Source of the DNA: an uncultured Wenzhouxiangella sp.
GTDB taxonomy: Bacteria; Pseudomonadota; Gammaproteobacteria; Xanthomonadales; Wenzhouxiangellaceae
Assembly: GCA_913057195.1 (NCBI GenBank)
Contig: CAJXNL010000017.1
Coordinates: forward strand, 1-45,393
Reading direction: 5' to 3'
Length of the DNA stretch: 45,393 nucleotides
Shown piece after piece: positions 3,744 through 10,134 of this stretch. The position numbers and the translations under genes are program-made. A model generated the notes under the pieces. It was not told where the DNA came from and did no database searches. It was given only the letters and a program-made list of their open reading frames with translations. Within the stretch, counting starts at the first letter, position 1. The number at the start of each line of letters is the position of its first letter.

Positions 3744-5353
<1,610 letters not shown>

Positions 5354-5357
<4 letters not shown>

Positions 5358-5488
5358 GTTCAGGCCATCCGCAAACCAGCAAGAAAAAACGCCGCGCCGT
5401 CATCAAGACGGCGTGGCTGCTGGTGGCGGTGGTGCTTGCCATCTATCTCTTCTTCATCGGCCGTGCTTTTATTCAGGGTGCGTTGTGA
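5354..5488 (+). CDS. 44-residue single-pass membrane protein, probable oxidase small assembly factor
   Basis: A short open frame starts with an ATG that overlaps the coxA stop (ATGA) and ends in a TGA that overlaps the GTG start of ctaG. It encodes a very basic N-terminus (KKKRR at residues 10-14), one hydrophobic helix (about residues 18-36) and a short tail ending GRAFIQGAL. Its position, size and topology match the small proteins annotated as cytochrome oxidase small assembly protein between coxA and ctaG in other proteobacteria. The exact family assignment is inference. Tight coupling on both sides argues that it is translated. Confidence 0.7.
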
Positions 5489-6066
5489 GCGATTCTAGGG
5501 CCAGCACATTGAACTCCAAGCTCAGATACGTGGGGCAGCTGGCGCTTTTTGCGGTGGCCATGTTCGGTTTTGGCTATTTGCTGGTGCCCCTGTATGACAA
5601 GTTCTGCGAAGTCACCGGGATCGGCGGCCGGACAGCGGAGGGGCCAGTGGCTGAGGCTGAATACCTACCCACCGAGCCCGACATGTCGCGCGAAGTCACT
5701 GTGCACTTTGATGCCAACGTCAATTCATCGCTGCCTTGGCATTTCGAGCCGGTTGAAAAAACCATGGCAGTCCACCCCGGCAAGATGTATGAAACCGCCT
5801 ATATCGCGACCAATTACTCTGATCAACCCGTGGTTGCCCAAGCCGTCCCGAGCGTTGCCCCCGGTCTGGCATCGCTGCATTTCAATAAAACCGAATGCTT
5901 CTGCTTTACCGAACAGCTTCTCGGGCCAGGTGAATCGCGTGAGATGCCCGTTCGTTTTTTTGTTCATCCCGACCTTGACGATGGCACCAATTTTGTCACC
6001 CTGTCATACATCGTCTACAAGAACGACGACGCGACCGCGCGCGAAACCGTGGCAATGGGCCAATAA
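5485..6066 (+). CDS. ctaG: Cytochrome c oxidase assembly protein CtaG (CuB copper chaperone, Cox11 family)
   Basis: CtaG/Cox11 delivers copper to the CuB site of subunit I from the periplasmic face. The 193-residue protein has one N-terminal membrane helix (about residues 13-33), then YDKFCEVTGIGG, which is typical of the family, and a beta-rich periplasmic domain with the copper-binding CFCF motif in KTECFCFTEQ. I chose the GTG at 5485 because it overlaps the stop of the preceding small gene and places the membrane helix near the N-terminus. A frame extending upstream to 5413 would overlap the small gene in a different frame and has no family similarity. Confidence 0.95.
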   Translation: MSDSRASTLNSKLRYVGQLALFAVAMFGFGYLLVPLYDKFCEVTGIGGRTAEGPVAEAEYLPTEPDMSREVTVHFDANVNSSLPWHFEPVEKTMAVHPGKMYETAYIATNYSDQPVVAQAVPSVAPGLASLHFNKTECFCFTEQLLGPGESREMPVRFFVHPDLDDGTNFVTLSYIVYKNDDATARETVAMGQ

Positions 6067-6131
6067 ACTCGCTACAATCATCGCGAGCCCGTCGGGCGAT
6101 CACATGACGACATCTTGAGGTAAGGCACAGC

Positions 6132-6992
6132 ATGGCACAGGGCAGTTATTACGTCCCCCACACCGCGAAGTGGCCCATCGTGGGCTCCGTTGGCTTGTTT
6201 ACGTTGATGGTTGGCGCCGCCAACTGGCTCAACGCCAATCCCACAGGCCCTTGGGTCTTTGCCGTCGGCGCAGCGATCGTCATTTTGATGATTTTTGGTT
6301 GGTTTGCCGATGTGATCAAAGAATCGGAGGGTGGCCTTTATAGCCATGCGGTCGATGCCTCGTTCCGACAGGGCATGATTTGGTTTATTTTTTCAGAAGT
6401 CATGTTTTTTGCGGCCTTTTTTGGCGCGCTTTTTTATGCCCGCACCTTTTCAGTGCCGTGGTTGGGAGGAGAAGGCACCGGTGCCATGACAAACATGCTC
6501 TTATACCCCGACTTTGAGGCAGCGTGGCCAACGCATGGGCCGGGTGAGCTGGGCGGTGATTTTCAAACGATTTCTGGCTTTGGATTGCCGTTAATAAACA
6601 CCCTCCTCTTGCTGACTTCAGGGGTGACCATCACCCTTGCCCACTGGGCGATGAAAAAAGCGCAACGCACCGCCTTGGTGCTGTGGCTCCTCGCCACAAT
6701 CGTATTGGCCAGCGTATTTTTGTATATCCAGGCCTATGAATACGTACACGCCTATCAAGACCTCGGCTTGACCCTCGGTTCGGGCATCTATGGATCCACA
6801 TTCTTTATGCTCACCGGTTTTCACGGCCTCCATGTCTTGATCGGCACCCTCATTTTGGTCGTGATCATGTTCAGATGCATGGCGGGCCATTTCGCAGGTA
6901 AAAACCACTTTGGTTTTGAAGCAGCCGCGTGGTACTGGCACTTTGTTGATGTGGTGTGGCTTGGCCTGTTTATCTTTGTGTATGTGGTCTGA
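6132..6992 (+). CDS. coxC: Cytochrome c oxidase subunit III
   Basis: Subunit III stabilises the oxidase and supports proton uptake. The 286-residue protein shows seven hydrophobic segments, with typical stretches GMIWFIFSEVMFF, FHGLHVLIGT and AAWYWHFVDVVWL. A TTGAGG ribosome site precedes the ATG. The 65-base gap after ctaG holds a TACAAT hexamer at 6073-6078, with a weak TGGCAA 17 bases upstream. It also holds two small inverted repeats: CTCGC/GCGAG around 6068-6087, and a GCCC/GGGC pair just downstream. A separate promoter or an RNA-processing hairpin that tunes subunit III is therefore possible but unproven. Confidence 0.97.
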   Translation: MAQGSYYVPHTAKWPIVGSVGLFTLMVGAANWLNANPTGPWVFAVGAAIVILMIFGWFADVIKESEGGLYSHAVDASFRQGMIWFIFSEVMFFAAFFGALFYARTFSVPWLGGEGTGAMTNMLLYPDFEAAWPTHGPGELGGDFQTISGFGLPLINTLLLLTSGVTITLAHWAMKKAQRTALVLWLLATIVLASVFLYIQAYEYVHAYQDLGLTLGSGIYGSTFFMLTGFHGLHVLIGTLILVVIMFRCMAGHFAGKNHFGFEAAAWYWHFVDVVWLGLFIFVYVV

Positions 6993-6999
6993 TTGATCC

Positions 7000-8064
7000 A
7001 TGAGCGCACCGTCGCCCAAGCTCGTCACTGCAGGCTTGTGGCTTGTGGTGCTGGCGGTCAGCCTTTATTTGTTGGTCATTGCCAGGGATCTTCTCATCCC
7101 CCTGGTTCTGGCGATCTTTATCTGGTATCTGATCAACCTGCTCGCGCGCCAGTTCAGTCGGTTGAAAATCGGCGGCCATCCACTCCCAATGGCTTTGCAA
7201 TATGTGGCTGCCATCGCGGTCGCAGCCACCATTGCAGGCCTCTTTGGGACCCTGATCACGGCCAACATTAACCAAGTCATCGAAACGGCACCGGCTTATC
7301 AACAAAACATCAATCAGCTGATTTTGGATAACTTTGAGCGTTTTGGTTTTGAGGAACCCCCTGCGATTCGAAGCCTAATTGAGGGCATCAATTTTGCATC
7401 CATTCTTCGCAATCTTGCCAGTGCATTGGGTGGGCTCATGGGCAATCTGGGTTTAATTACGGTCTATCTGGTGTTTTTGTTTCTCGAGCAAAAGTTTTTC
7501 ACCCAAAAGCTTAAAGCCATCTTTCCCCAAGCCAAACAATTCGATACGGCGCAGTCGATCTTGCAGCGCATCGACAAAGATGTCTCAATTTATCTGGGCA
7601 TCAAAACCATGGTCAGTGCATTAACCGGATTGATTTCTTGGTTGATCATGGCCGCGGTGGGTTTGGACTTTGCTGGTTTTTGGGCGCTTTTGATCTTCGT
7701 TTTGAACTTTATCCCCAACATTGGTTCGCTGCTGGCGACGATTCTGCCGACCCTGCTGGCCTTGTTGCAATTTGATACGCTGGTGCCCTTTATGATTGTG
7801 GGCATTGGTGTGGGCACCACCCAGCTCATCATTGGCAATTTCGTGGAGCCCCCTTTAATGGGGCGCTCACTGAATATTTCGCCGCTGGTGGTGCTGTTAT
7901 CGCTGGTGCTGTGGGGGTCAATGTGGGGGATTCCGGGCATGTTCCTGTGTGTTCCCATCACAGTCATCCTAATGATCATTTTGTACCAGTTCGATGCCTC
8001 GCGCTGGATCGCTTTGGCACTGTCTAAGAACGGTCAAGTGACGCCCTCAAGTCAACGCCCTTAA
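7000..8064 (+). CDS. AI-2E / PerM family transporter
   Basis: This 354-residue polytopic protein belongs to the AI-2E transporter (PerM/TqsA, UPF0118) superfamily. It has several N-terminal membrane helices, a less hydrophobic middle region (about residues 85-200) and a C-terminal helical bundle with FVLNFIPNIGSLLATILP and GNFVEPPLMGRSLNISPLVV, which are family hallmarks. Members have been linked to autoinducer-2 export, Na+/H+ exchange or lipid and peptide movement, so the substrate cannot be assigned. It begins seven bases after coxC, so it is probably read from the oxidase operon, although no strong ribosome site is seen. Its TAA stop overlaps the stop of the convergent gene. Confidence 0.88.
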   Translation: MSAPSPKLVTAGLWLVVLAVSLYLLVIARDLLIPLVLAIFIWYLINLLARQFSRLKIGGHPLPMALQYVAAIAVAATIAGLFGTLITANINQVIETAPAYQQNINQLILDNFERFGFEEPPAIRSLIEGINFASILRNLASALGGLMGNLGLITVYLVFLFLEQKFFTQKLKAIFPQAKQFDTAQSILQRIDKDVSIYLGIKTMVSALTGLISWLIMAAVGLDFAGFWALLIFVLNFIPNIGSLLATILPTLLALLQFDTLVPFMIVGIGVGTTQLIIGNFVEPPLMGRSLNISPLVVLLSLVLWGSMWGIPGMFLCVPITVILMIILYQFDASRWIALALSKNGQVTPSSQRP

Positions 8065-10001
8065 ACCCCTTCATCGAGGTATGACTCGAGCAGCCGGCCT
8101 GCCACGATCATCAGATCGTACTCGGTGACCAAACCTACCAGCTTGCCCTTTTCTACCACCGGGAGACAGCTCAGGCGCTGCTCTCGCATCAATCGTATTG
8201 CCTCAACGGTCGGCGTGTCTGGGGACACAGAACGAGGGTCTTTATGCATAATCTCGCTGACTCGAGTGTCGCTGCTTGACCCGCGTGCAACCAGTCGCAG
8301 CAGTTGCCGATGTGAAACCAGGCCCAAAAGCTGCCCCGAGTCATCCTCAACAGGCACATGTCGAACATAACGCCACTCCATAAGGCTTGCTGCAAAGTCA
8401 ACAATGTCATCTGGTCGAACGGTGAACAGGTCGGTGGCCATGAATTGCCCGACAGTTCGATAGCTCTCCCGCCAATCTTGAGCAAAACAAAACTCTGCCA
8501 AATCCCAGTCACTGACCGGTGCTCCGCCTTTTTGTTGTTGAATCATGCTTGACGTCAGCGAGCGCAGGCACTCATGGGCAGAGCCTGTCCCTTTCATGGC
8601 ATCGAGTGACTCAAGTTGCCAACGCGCTCCGGTTCGCCTCAATTCAACGCGTTTTTTGACCACGCCCAAATAAAAATCAATGTCTTCAGATGCAATTTGG
8701 GCCTCTTTGAGGCCCTCTTCGGCCAAGGGCAGAAGAACGTCCAATATCAGCGCCTGAGCCGTCATTTGGCGTTGATCAAACCACATCTGCTGTGCTCGCA
8801 GTCCTTCACGGGCCGCGGCCATAAAGTTGGCTTTGACATCAGAAAAGTGAAAGTAGGGCCGAATGTCATCAACTGATCGAGAAAGTTTTGCCATCATCCC
8901 AAAGAAAAATGCGGCGTTGGCTATTTCATCGGTCACCGTGGGTCCTGAGGGAATCACCCGGTTTTCAATTCTCAAATGCGGCTTGCCGTTGGCTGATATC
9001 CCGTAACACGCGCGGTTCCAGCGATACACGGTGCCATTATGCAAACGCAACGCGTTGAGCTTCGGCACTTCACCACGTGCCACCATCCCGATGGGATCCG
9101 GCTCAGACTCAGTGGTCAAGATGGCACGGAATCGAGCGATATCCTCTTTAAAAATTTCGATGACTGACTGATCGACCCACTGATCACCAAAGTGGACCCT
9201 CGGCTTATGACCCCGAGCCGCATGCGCGCTCGACCTTGCGTCAACTGAGTTTTCAAATACCGCAATTCGGCTCTCATGCCAAAGCCGCCTGCCAAGCAAA
9301 ATCGGAGAATTCACACAAGCCGCCAACAATGGCCCAGTGACCACTTGGGCAATGTTGTACAGATGAGCAAATTCATCCGCTCCCACCTGGAAATGGACCT
9401 GGAAGCTGGTATTACACGCCTCAAGCATGAGGTTATCGTGATCCAATTCCAAATGGTCGATGCCTTTGATATTAAACTTGAAGTCTCGCCCCCTTAGGTT
9501 CATCAGCGCCGCGTTCAACTCGTGGTAACGCGGTTTCGGCACCATGGCGGCCAAAGTGAGATCATCTTTGGTGAGCGTGGGCAAAATGCCCACCAACGCC
9601 ACTTGAGCCCCCTCAGACGCCGCATGTTCTCGGGCGAGCTGAACCACTTCATCGGTCTCTGTGTGCAGTTGACGCAGGCACGTGCCGCCCAACTCCAGGG
9701 GTGACAAATTCGCCTCTAAATTAAACAGGCCTAATTCGTGCGTGAACCGCTCGTCGTTGATCCGATTTAAGACCTCAGTCGCCGTCAGCGAGGGGCGGTG
9801 CGCCCCATCAACCAAAAACATCTCCTGCTCTGCACCGATGCGGCGGATCCCGCCCTCAAACATCCCCTGAGAATGCATATCTTCCAGCGCACGCACCTCG
9901 GTGAGCAGCGCTTTCATAAATTCGCTGTGGGCGCGCTCATTGCCGCCTTGGGATATTGTTTGCTCGCCCATGCCAGGTGCTCGGGGTGGATATTGTGGCA
10001 T
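8061..10001 (-). CDS. Glutamate-cysteine-ligase-like enzyme with C-terminal CBS domain pair
   Basis: The protein (646 residues) has two parts. Residues about 40-500 resemble the GCS2 carboxylate-amine ligase fold: GAEQE at 56-60, LEANLSP, CNTSFQVHFQV and RIENRVIPSGP correspond to the ATP, metal and substrate segments of glutamate-cysteine ligases. Residues about 519-572 and 583-640 are two CBS domains (FMATDLFTVRPDD..., IMHKDPRSVSPDT...), which usually sense adenine nucleotides. The likely reaction is ATP-dependent amide formation on a glutamate-like carboxylate, gated by nucleotide binding, but the substrate is unknown. I chose the ATG at 10001 because AGGA lies eight bases upstream; a frame start at 10052 has no such site. 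It is convergent with the PerM-type gene and divergent from fadD. Confidence 0.8.
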   Translation of the reverse strand: MPQYPPRAPGMGEQTISQGGNERAHSEFMKALLTEVRALEDMHSQGMFEGGIRRIGAEQEMFLVDGAHRPSLTATEVLNRINDERFTHELGLFNLEANLSPLELGGTCLRQLHTETDEVVQLAREHAASEGAQVALVGILPTLTKDDLTLAAMVPKPRYHELNAALMNLRGRDFKFNIKGIDHLELDHDNLMLEACNTSFQVHFQVGADEFAHLYNIAQVVTGPLLAACVNSPILLGRRLWHESRIAVFENSVDARSSAHAARGHKPRVHFGDQWVDQSVIEIFKEDIARFRAILTTESEPDPIGMVARGEVPKLNALRLHNGTVYRWNRACYGISANGKPHLRIENRVIPSGPTVTDEIANAAFFFGMMAKLSRSVDDIRPYFHFSDVKANFMAAAREGLRAQQMWFDQRQMTAQALILDVLLPLAEEGLKEAQIASEDIDFYLGVVKKRVELRRTGARWQLESLDAMKGTGSAHECLRSLTSSMIQQQKGGAPVSDWDLAEFCFAQDWRESYRTVGQFMATDLFTVRPDDIVDFAASLMEWRYVRHVPVEDDSGQLLGLVSHRQLLRLVARGSSSDTRVSEIMHKDPRSVSPDTPTVEAIRLMREQRLSCLPVVEKGKLVGLVTEYDLMIVAGRLLESYLDEGV

Positions 10002-10134
10002 GATAAACGTCCTGTCTCTGGAGGGCAAATGCCAGCCAGGCCCGGGAAGCACTGAAAAGACTTGTCACCTCGCTCCGGCTGTGCCAAGCTTAGGCGCGGA
10101 TAGAGTGATTTCATAGTAAGGAGAGGCCACACAG

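Follow-up and report, generated by a model that had tools for sequence, protein, structure and literature searches.

Among described proteins, the nearest in fold to the one considered here are YbdK of Escherichia coli and Salmonella (structures 1r8g and 1tt4) and the glutamate-cysteine ligases (GCL) of plants (2gwc) and yeast (3ig5). Our subject is a minus-strand gene in a 45,393-nucleotide stretch of DNA from an uncultured Wenzhouxiangella sp. (contig CAJXNL010000017.1, assembly GCA_913057195.1), which we analysed whole and call the window; its product, the GCS-CBS ligase, joins a catalytic domain of the GCS fold to a C-terminal pair of CBS domains. It shares with YbdK the catalytic fold (Z about 36) and a GhExE-type motif, but at 14% identity, and whereas YbdK has about 355 residues and no CBS domain, the window protein has a longer catalytic domain, a RIENRxLPxGP signature and the CBS pair. 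GCL is alike in fold (Z 31 for the plant and 29 for the yeast enzyme) and 16-19% identical, but the window protein lies far under the cut-offs of GCL models and its genome has a plant-type gshA of its own. The pupylation enzymes PafA and Dop belong to the same superfamily and fold (Z 18-19) and also set a ligase against an opposing hydrolase; Dop is a homologue of PafA, as one study states (PMC8599861), whereas the hydrolase that accompanies the GCS-CBS ligase is an unrelated zinc-type enzyme and not a homologue of the ligase. This partner hydrolase has its own counterparts in AstE, aspartoacylase, DoeB and CphZ, with which it shares the Pfam family PF24827, the fold (Z 20-24) and the HGNE, DLNR, DLH and Glu positions, but it is 15-20% identical to them and its last ~70 residues are hardly covered. 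The CBS pair is closest in fold to AcuB (2o16), at 34% identity over 131 residues; the matched chains have no ligase domain, and AcuB repeat 1 carries an aspartate (SQRDLL) that the window protein lacks (SHRQLL).

With slightly more belief than doubt, we read the GCS-CBS ligase as an ATP-dependent amide ligase that is gated by adenine nucleotides and works in a make-and-break pair with a deacylase. What the data show is the fold, the catalytic motifs kept in both proteins, the pairing of the genes, and the co-occurrence and co-variation of the pair; we infer that the reaction runs towards synthesis, with gamma-glutamyl or beta-aspartyl chemistry. The ligase would phosphorylate a carboxylate in a side chain, most likely that at the gamma position of glutamate or the beta position of aspartate; the activated group would then be coupled to a small molecule that offers an amino group, an amino acid being the likeliest, to give an isopeptide-type amide. 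The CBS pair at the C-terminus, which has one canonical adenosine site, may tune this activity to the cellular state of the adenine nucleotides, and the same amide would be cleaved by a zinc amidohydrolase dedicated to it, of the AstE/AspA (M14-like) type. Of the nine phyla sampled, six have loci in which the two genes are adjacent, and the window's lineage would use a hydrolase of another subfamily encoded elsewhere in the genome. Both enzymes belong to known superfamilies; what is new is the fusion, the pairing and a presumed metabolite without an assigned pathway, and no account of a GCS-CBS fusion or of a GCS-type ligase paired with an AstE-type hydrolase was found in the open-licence literature. 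On this evidence a conserved protein is one member of a module of two genes that is separate from glutathione synthesis, and should the two enzymes build and cleave a single metabolite under control by the energy state, many bacteria would contain an unrecognised small molecule or storage form.

The gene itself and its candidate starts are placed as follows.

8061..10052, minus strand: whole open frame of the GCS-CBS ligase, from the list of open reading frames; GTG start at 10052, 663 residues.

10001 and 9971, minus strand: candidate starts, an in-frame ATG at 10001 and a conserved ATG at 9971, from which the homologues align.

Residues are numbered on window:8064-9974:- (637 residues), so that the conserved Met has number 2. 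The gene is real, far beyond chance. Of 101 genomes, made up of the window's own and those of 100 relatives, 63 contain a homologue at E <= 1e-20, nearly always of full length, and comparison with an 84% identical homologue gave 115/55/360 differences at the three codon positions over 636 codons, which places the gene under purifying selection. To look beyond these relatives, bacterial and archaeal genome contigs were scanned with a family profile; at least 595 stretches matched, 591 were confirmed and the best 80 were kept, and these 80 loci, as the best of at least 591, are biased towards close relatives of the window. By their record titles they belong to Planctomycetota, Myxococcota, Acidobacteriota, Bacteroidota, Rhodothermota, Gemmatimonadota, Calditrichota, Krumholzibacteriota and Pseudomonadota, and GCS-CBS proteins are present in at least eight phyla. 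All 80 matches extend into the CBS pair; one (L094) ends inside it and another (L136) has no N-terminal part, both near contig ends. Relatives that lack CBS domains and have about 500 residues come from three actinomycete records, from myxobacteria and from a single genome of the window's order; a haloarchaeon has a CBS-less relative that is 27% identical. The best annotation borne by relatives of the window protein is 'glutamate-cysteine ligase family protein'.

The first-pass annotation of the window, made from its sequence, had proposed an amide ligase of GCS type with a CBS pair attached, and both halves of that proposal hold; the gene end that it gave, 10001, falls on an ATG inside the longer frame. 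The Pfam GCS2 profile (PF04107), whose cut-off is 21 bits, matches at 26.8 bits, but only over its positions 2-108 of 291, and an AlphaFold2 model of the protein has a mean predicted local distance difference test (pLDDT) score of 92.7. Compared by VIA-align, residues 34-490 of the model match YbdK at Z 35.9 (1tt4) and 35.5 (1r8g) with 345-349 residues aligned, plant GCL 2gwc at Z 31.0 (379 residues), yeast GCL 3ig5 at Z 29.1 (471 residues) and Dop/PafA at Z 18-19; the root-mean-square deviation is 2.5-2.7 over 345-379 residues to 1tt4, 1r8g and 2gwc, which places the domain in the GCS/YbdK fold. A sequence profile search with the catalytic-domain alignment found no credible relative in the PDB, and the link to the superfamily therefore rests on fold and motifs. 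An hhalign comparison with the genome's own GshA gave 77% probability, with an alignment that was partly doubtful and was not used to map residues. The catalytic domain and its motifs lie on the minus strand.

8505..9875, minus strand: catalytic domain of the GCS/carboxylate-amine ligase fold (residues 34-490), from the AlphaFold2 model and VIA-align fold matches.

9822..9836, minus strand: GAEQE (residues 47-51), the GhExE metal/ATP motif of core strand 1, by motif match.

9699..9737, minus strand: region of E80 and E87 (ELGLFNLEANLSP), acidic residues of strands 2 and 3, by alignment.

9387..9401, minus strand: Q192-V-H194-F-Q196, the [HQ]x[NH] metal/phosphate motif of strand 4, by alignment.

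8940..8972, minus strand: RIENRVIPSGP (335-345), with the ExR of core strand 6, by alignment.

Conservation was read from 56 aligned sequences, the 55 others being 44-84% identical to the window protein. G47, E49, Q50 and E51 are invariant and A48 is kept in 95%; E80, F84, E87 and N89 are invariant, as are Q192, H194 and Q196 in strand 4 and R335, I336, E337, R339, G344 and P345 around strand 6. R236, R259 and R321, also invariant, fit the arginines of strand 5 and of the loop that precedes it. The reference for these assignments was the superfamily motif list in PMC2588565, which names GhExE in strand 1, acidic residues in strands 2 and 3, [HQ/D]x[NH] in strand 4, arginines in strand 5 and Ex[RK]x2D in strand 6; we assigned the motifs by pattern and predicted strands, not from superposed coordinates. 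Judged in this way, the ATP and metal motifs of the superfamily appear to be retained, with a proline holding one aspartate spacing. The segments singled out in the first-pass annotation (a GxExE start motif, LEANLSP, NTSFQVHFQV and RIENRVIPSGP) are all present, at GAEQE 47-51, LEANLSP 86-92 and RIENRVIPSGP 335-345 among others, and retention of ATP and metal ligands, which that annotation had proposed as a check, is seen throughout the 56 sequences save at that proline.

The two complete CBS domains that it had reported in one open frame are equally evident, since Pfam CBS matches two stretches of the protein at 101 bits (E 4e-29).

8070..8468, minus strand: CBS domain pair (residues 503-635), from Pfam CBS and the fold match to AcuB.

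8115..8126, minus strand: T617-E-Y-D620, a ribose-binding type motif of CBS repeat 2, by alignment.

The best fold match of residues 503-635 is AcuB of Vibrio cholerae (2o16; Z 20.0 over 131 residues), and other AcuB structures among the closest CBS folds carry AMP, ADP, ATP or Ap4A. By sequence alone two other CBS proteins, 9znf and 9sr9, outscore AcuB. We take the T..D motif of a CBS repeat to be of the ribose-binding type, expected as T/S..D in both repeats; in repeat 2, T617 is kept in 88% and D620 in 91% of the 56 sequences. CBS domains are often regulatory, and gating of the ligase by a nucleotide bound to this pair is plausible, although only repeat 2 keeps the motif.

The evidence for a partner comes from the neighbourhoods. 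Directly downstream of the ligase and on the same strand, a gene for an AstE/AspA-type amidohydrolase is present in 30 of the 80 loci, or in 28 of the 72 with at least 600 bases of downstream sequence (8 loci have less room, and 2 of these have the hydrolase); one further locus (L127), whose hydrolase gene lies ~3 kb upstream of the ligase, was left out of the 30. The paired loci span Planctomycetota, Myxococcota, Acidobacteriota, Gemmatimonadota, Calditrichota and Krumholzibacteriota, and none of the 30 among the 80 loci comes from Pseudomonadota, Bacteroidota or Rhodothermota. In 18 of the 30 pairs an in-frame start codon overlaps the ligase stop by 4 bases. Within 6 kb, no third gene is common to more than 3 of the 30 paired loci. 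The two proteins vary together: across 27 adjacent pairs, ligase and hydrolase distances correlate with a Spearman coefficient of 0.58, a value that 0 of 2000 permutations reached. On the ligase tree the adjacency state requires at least 10 changes (73 scored rows).

PF24827 is over its cut-off in all five scanned partners of CBS ligases, and H42, E45, R85, N92, R93, H143 and E199 of the hydrolase are kept in 28 of 28 aligned sequences. We take this pattern to correspond to the H, E and H zinc ligands and the catalytic Glu of aspartoacylase. A model of the partner hydrolase (pLDDT 91.4) has AstE, DoeB, aspartoacylase, Csd4 and CphZ as its fold matches (Z 20-24), with the CphZ structure 8eip at Z 20.1. 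CphZ, annotated as AstE/AspA, splits beta-Asp-Arg isopeptides and is a cyanophycin dipeptide hydrolase according to PMC10206079; because this AstE-type enzyme cleaves beta-Asp-Arg, cyanophycin was considered and then set aside, though no search aimed at cyanophycin synthetase was made.

Other genes recur beside the ligase in particular lineages. In 15 loci, all gammaproteobacterial (L058, L060, L039 and L038 among them), a gene of ~150 residues that looks lipoprotein-like by eye lies directly downstream and often overlaps the ligase stop; the one scanned has no Pfam match. We rejected it as an essential partner, as it was not found in the window's genome (best match E 0.09). Six loci (L048, L054, L056, L070, L072 and L075) have a transporter gene 16-185 bases upstream on the same strand; the transporters of L048 and L056 have CitMHS and TrkA_C domains, the other four cluster with these, and such a transporter could carry the substrate or a counter-ion. 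Two genes downstream of the ligase, a carbon-nitrogen hydrolase (nitrilase/formamidase-like) stands at L049:7373-8347 and L051:7258-8250, the latter from family f5, whose four genomes gave no window-type hydrolase. The SLC13/TrkA_C transporter (6 loci), the CN_hydrolase (L049 and L051) and a Lhr-type helicase were set aside as partners, each being confined to a single lineage.

The window's own genome (1.78 Mb, 98.9% complete) encodes one PF24827 protein, of 366 residues, at C3:52243-53340 (47.8 bits, over the cut-off). It keeps the HGNE, DLNR, DIHNN and TLECG motifs and is 31% identical over 326 positions to the partner of a CBS-less ligase; in a tree it groups with the second hydrolase subfamily described below, with a branch support of 100 against the first. 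The claim in the first-pass annotation that the ligase gene stands alone between a permease and an acyl-CoA ligase is not supported in that form: the neighbours are as it named them, but a hydrolase gene adjoins the ligase in 30 of 80 loci and an unlinked copy is present in the window's genome. Orthologues of this hydrolase (E <= 1e-8) are found in 54 of the 63 ligase carriers and in 2 of the 38 non-carriers (Fisher 1.5e-16, a value inflated, like all our Fisher p-values, by kinship among the genomes, which overstates their independence). Within the window's order, families f1, f7, f8, f9 and f10 have both ligase and hydrolase, while f2, f3, f4, f6, f11 and f12, together with one f9 genome, have neither; despite the inflated p-values, the co-occurrence recurs in separate families. 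AstE-type proteins of any kind are widespread in the order, being encoded by 18 of 19 sampled genomes, and the correlation is confined to the window-type subfamily. A divergent ABC-transporter ATPase-like gene adjoins the unlinked hydrolase (L161-L190), with members of its cluster in all 30 loci inspected.

A wider sample of 235 genomes of the Nannocystis phylum, which includes the genomes of two A4 alignment rows (G103 and G111), allowed both classes of ligase to be followed. The classes were split by score, CBS ligases at 571 bits or more and CBS-less ligases at 522 or less, and frame length served as a check; in one genome (G240) a high ligase score goes with a frame of only 474 residues. 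The CBS ligase is present in 53 of the 235 genomes. A hydrolase match of at least 240 bits, a limit for the first subfamily that was chosen after the scores were known (at a gap from 244 to 118 bits), occurs in 18 of these 53 and in 8 of the 182 others (Fisher 7e-8), and in 15 of the 18 the two genes are adjacent. The CBS-less sister class is present in 22 genomes, and at 12 of 15 inspected loci an AstE hydrolase of a second subfamily stands immediately downstream. This second subfamily was found in 17 of the 22 genomes with a CBS-less ligase against 1 of the 213 others (Fisher 1.5e-20), and in all 17 it adjoins the ligase gene; ten of the genomes counted had also supplied rows of the query alignment for this subfamily (A5), and 5 of the 17 with both genes were previously unseen (G246, G285, G290, G305 and G313). 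PF24827 is over its cut-off in two of three partners of CBS-less ligases, the third scoring 17 bits against 25. Each ligase class thus has a hydrolase of the same family but of a different subfamily.

That the gene need not make glutathione, as the first-pass annotation had suggested, is supported by the rest of the genome. A separate plant-type gshA of 454 residues lies at G000:C18:40343 (296 bits to PF04107 and 588 bits to plant GCL), and gshB lies at C13:41922 (373 bits, over its curated cut-off); the absence of gshB from the neighbourhood of the ligase, also pointed out there, is confirmed. With gshA and gshB in place elsewhere, we rejected the window gene as the organism's ordinary gshA. 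A gshA above 250 bits is present in 57 of the 63 ligase carriers among the 101 genomes; of the other six, five lack gshA and one carries fragments. Among the best 25 of 31 families, the window ligase scores 27 bits against a cut-off of 332 with the nearest NCBIfam glutamate-cysteine ligase model (NF010041), and 18 bits against 371 with the EgtA model (TIGR03444). Neither the ligase nor any of three hydrolases scanned reaches a curated NCBIfam cut-off, and to that extent its earlier ranking as the window's best candidate for uncharacterised biochemistry stands; the comparison covered the ligase and hydrolases, not the other genes of the window. Outside Gammaproteobacteria, another GCS2 protein above 75 bits occurs in only 27 of 50 carriers, and in the 23 without one the ligase may have a GCL role.

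Two further proteins touch on this subject. A third GCS2 class (e.g. G038:C2:427289-428137), with 80-108 bits to PF04107 and mostly ~420 residues, is present in 19 of the 101 genomes, where it accompanies gshA and the GCS-CBS ligase, mostly in the window's family; it was not found in the window's genome. At G000:C4:42607-43260 there is a glutathione-synthetase-like ATP-grasp match of 65 bits, below the cut-off and possibly RimK-like.

Several observations count against a make-and-break pair. No hydrolase adjoins the ligase in 50 of the 80 loci, and where it does, adjacency is silent on whether the hydrolase opposes the ligase or acts earlier. In the Nannocystis phylum, 35 of the 53 CBS-ligase genomes have no strong hydrolase match, and at E <= 1e-10, a limit that admits other AstE-type proteins, the contrast shrinks to 21 of 53 against 48 of 182 (Fisher 0.09); the kinship that inflates the p-values bears on all of these comparisons. 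In the window's genome the two genes sit on separate contigs and the subfamily of the hydrolase is the one found beside CBS-less ligases, so that a partner swap must be assumed. The ligase occurs without a window-type hydrolase in f5 (4 genomes), in genus g14 of f8 (3) and in two incomplete f1 genomes. CBS repeat 1 has S-H-R without the ribose-binding aspartate, and therefore at most one canonical adenosine site is expected. Finally, P342, kept in 98% of the 56 sequences, occupies the aspartate spacing of the strand-6 motif Ex[RK]x2D; the next aspartate, D349, is invariant, as are E337 and R339.

The silence of adjacency leaves room for a sequential arrangement, in which an N-acyl precursor is first split by the hydrolase and the amino acid or amine released is then conjugated by the ligase, as a route of biosynthesis or salvage. 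Adjacency and co-occurrence fit such a course equally well, and AstE, DoeB and aspartoacylase, the fold matches of the partner hydrolase, serve catabolic routes. An external N-acyl route should, however, bring more genes with it than the bare pair that we see, and the same two-gene pair recurs in both sister ligase classes; we regard this course as unlikely. Still less probable, in our estimate, is a protein or peptide tail as the target, with the pair acting as writer and eraser in the manner of PafA/Dop or of RimK with a hydrolase. PafA and Dop, relatives in the GCS fold, do act on proteins, and M14-like enzymes such as Csd4 (Z 20 to the partner hydrolase model) act on peptides; but the nearest folds, YbdK and GCL (Z 29-36), act on small molecules, and among reading frames of at least 80 residues, smaller ones not having been searched, no small gene and no Pup-like gene recurs beside the pair.

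An ordinary glutamate-cysteine ligase with a CBS tail would account for the fold match to GCL, and the protein may be the only GCS2 member in the 23 non-gammaproteobacterial carriers just mentioned. We nevertheless think it quite improbable, given the strong gshA in the window's genome and in most carriers among its relatives and the wide shortfall against the GCL model; to our knowledge, moreover, pairing with an AstE-type hydrolase fits nowhere in known glutathione synthesis. We attach the least credence of all, very little, to a catalytically dead GCS fold serving as a nucleotide-sensing regulator: the proline in place of the strand-6 aspartate and the regulatory habit of CBS domains speak for it, but the remaining metal and ATP motif residues are invariant in 56 sequences, which would not be expected of a dead enzyme. 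An energy-gated ligase opposed by its own hydrolase is the reading that we retain. Its wider form, in which an ancient amide cycle reversibly stores or releases an isopeptide metabolite outside known pathways in at least eight phyla, each ligase class having a dedicated hydrolase subfamily that was exchanged at least once, is a suggestion that we doubt somewhat more than we believe.

Around the ligase gene, the neighbours were named by sequence reading. A permease-type gene converges on it, with overlapping 3' ends, and a FadD-type acyl-CoA ligase gene is divergent, 83 bases upstream. FadD was rejected as a partner and put down to local synteny, being among the four nearest genes in 23 of 81 resolved neighbourhoods (a set that includes a few contigs taken twice) and there only in Gammaproteobacteria. 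Further along the window, 3744-8064 reads as a heme-copper oxidase cluster (subunit I, an assembly protein and subunit III) followed by the permease, which is of AI-2E type and whose stop overlaps the stop of the GCS-CBS ligase.

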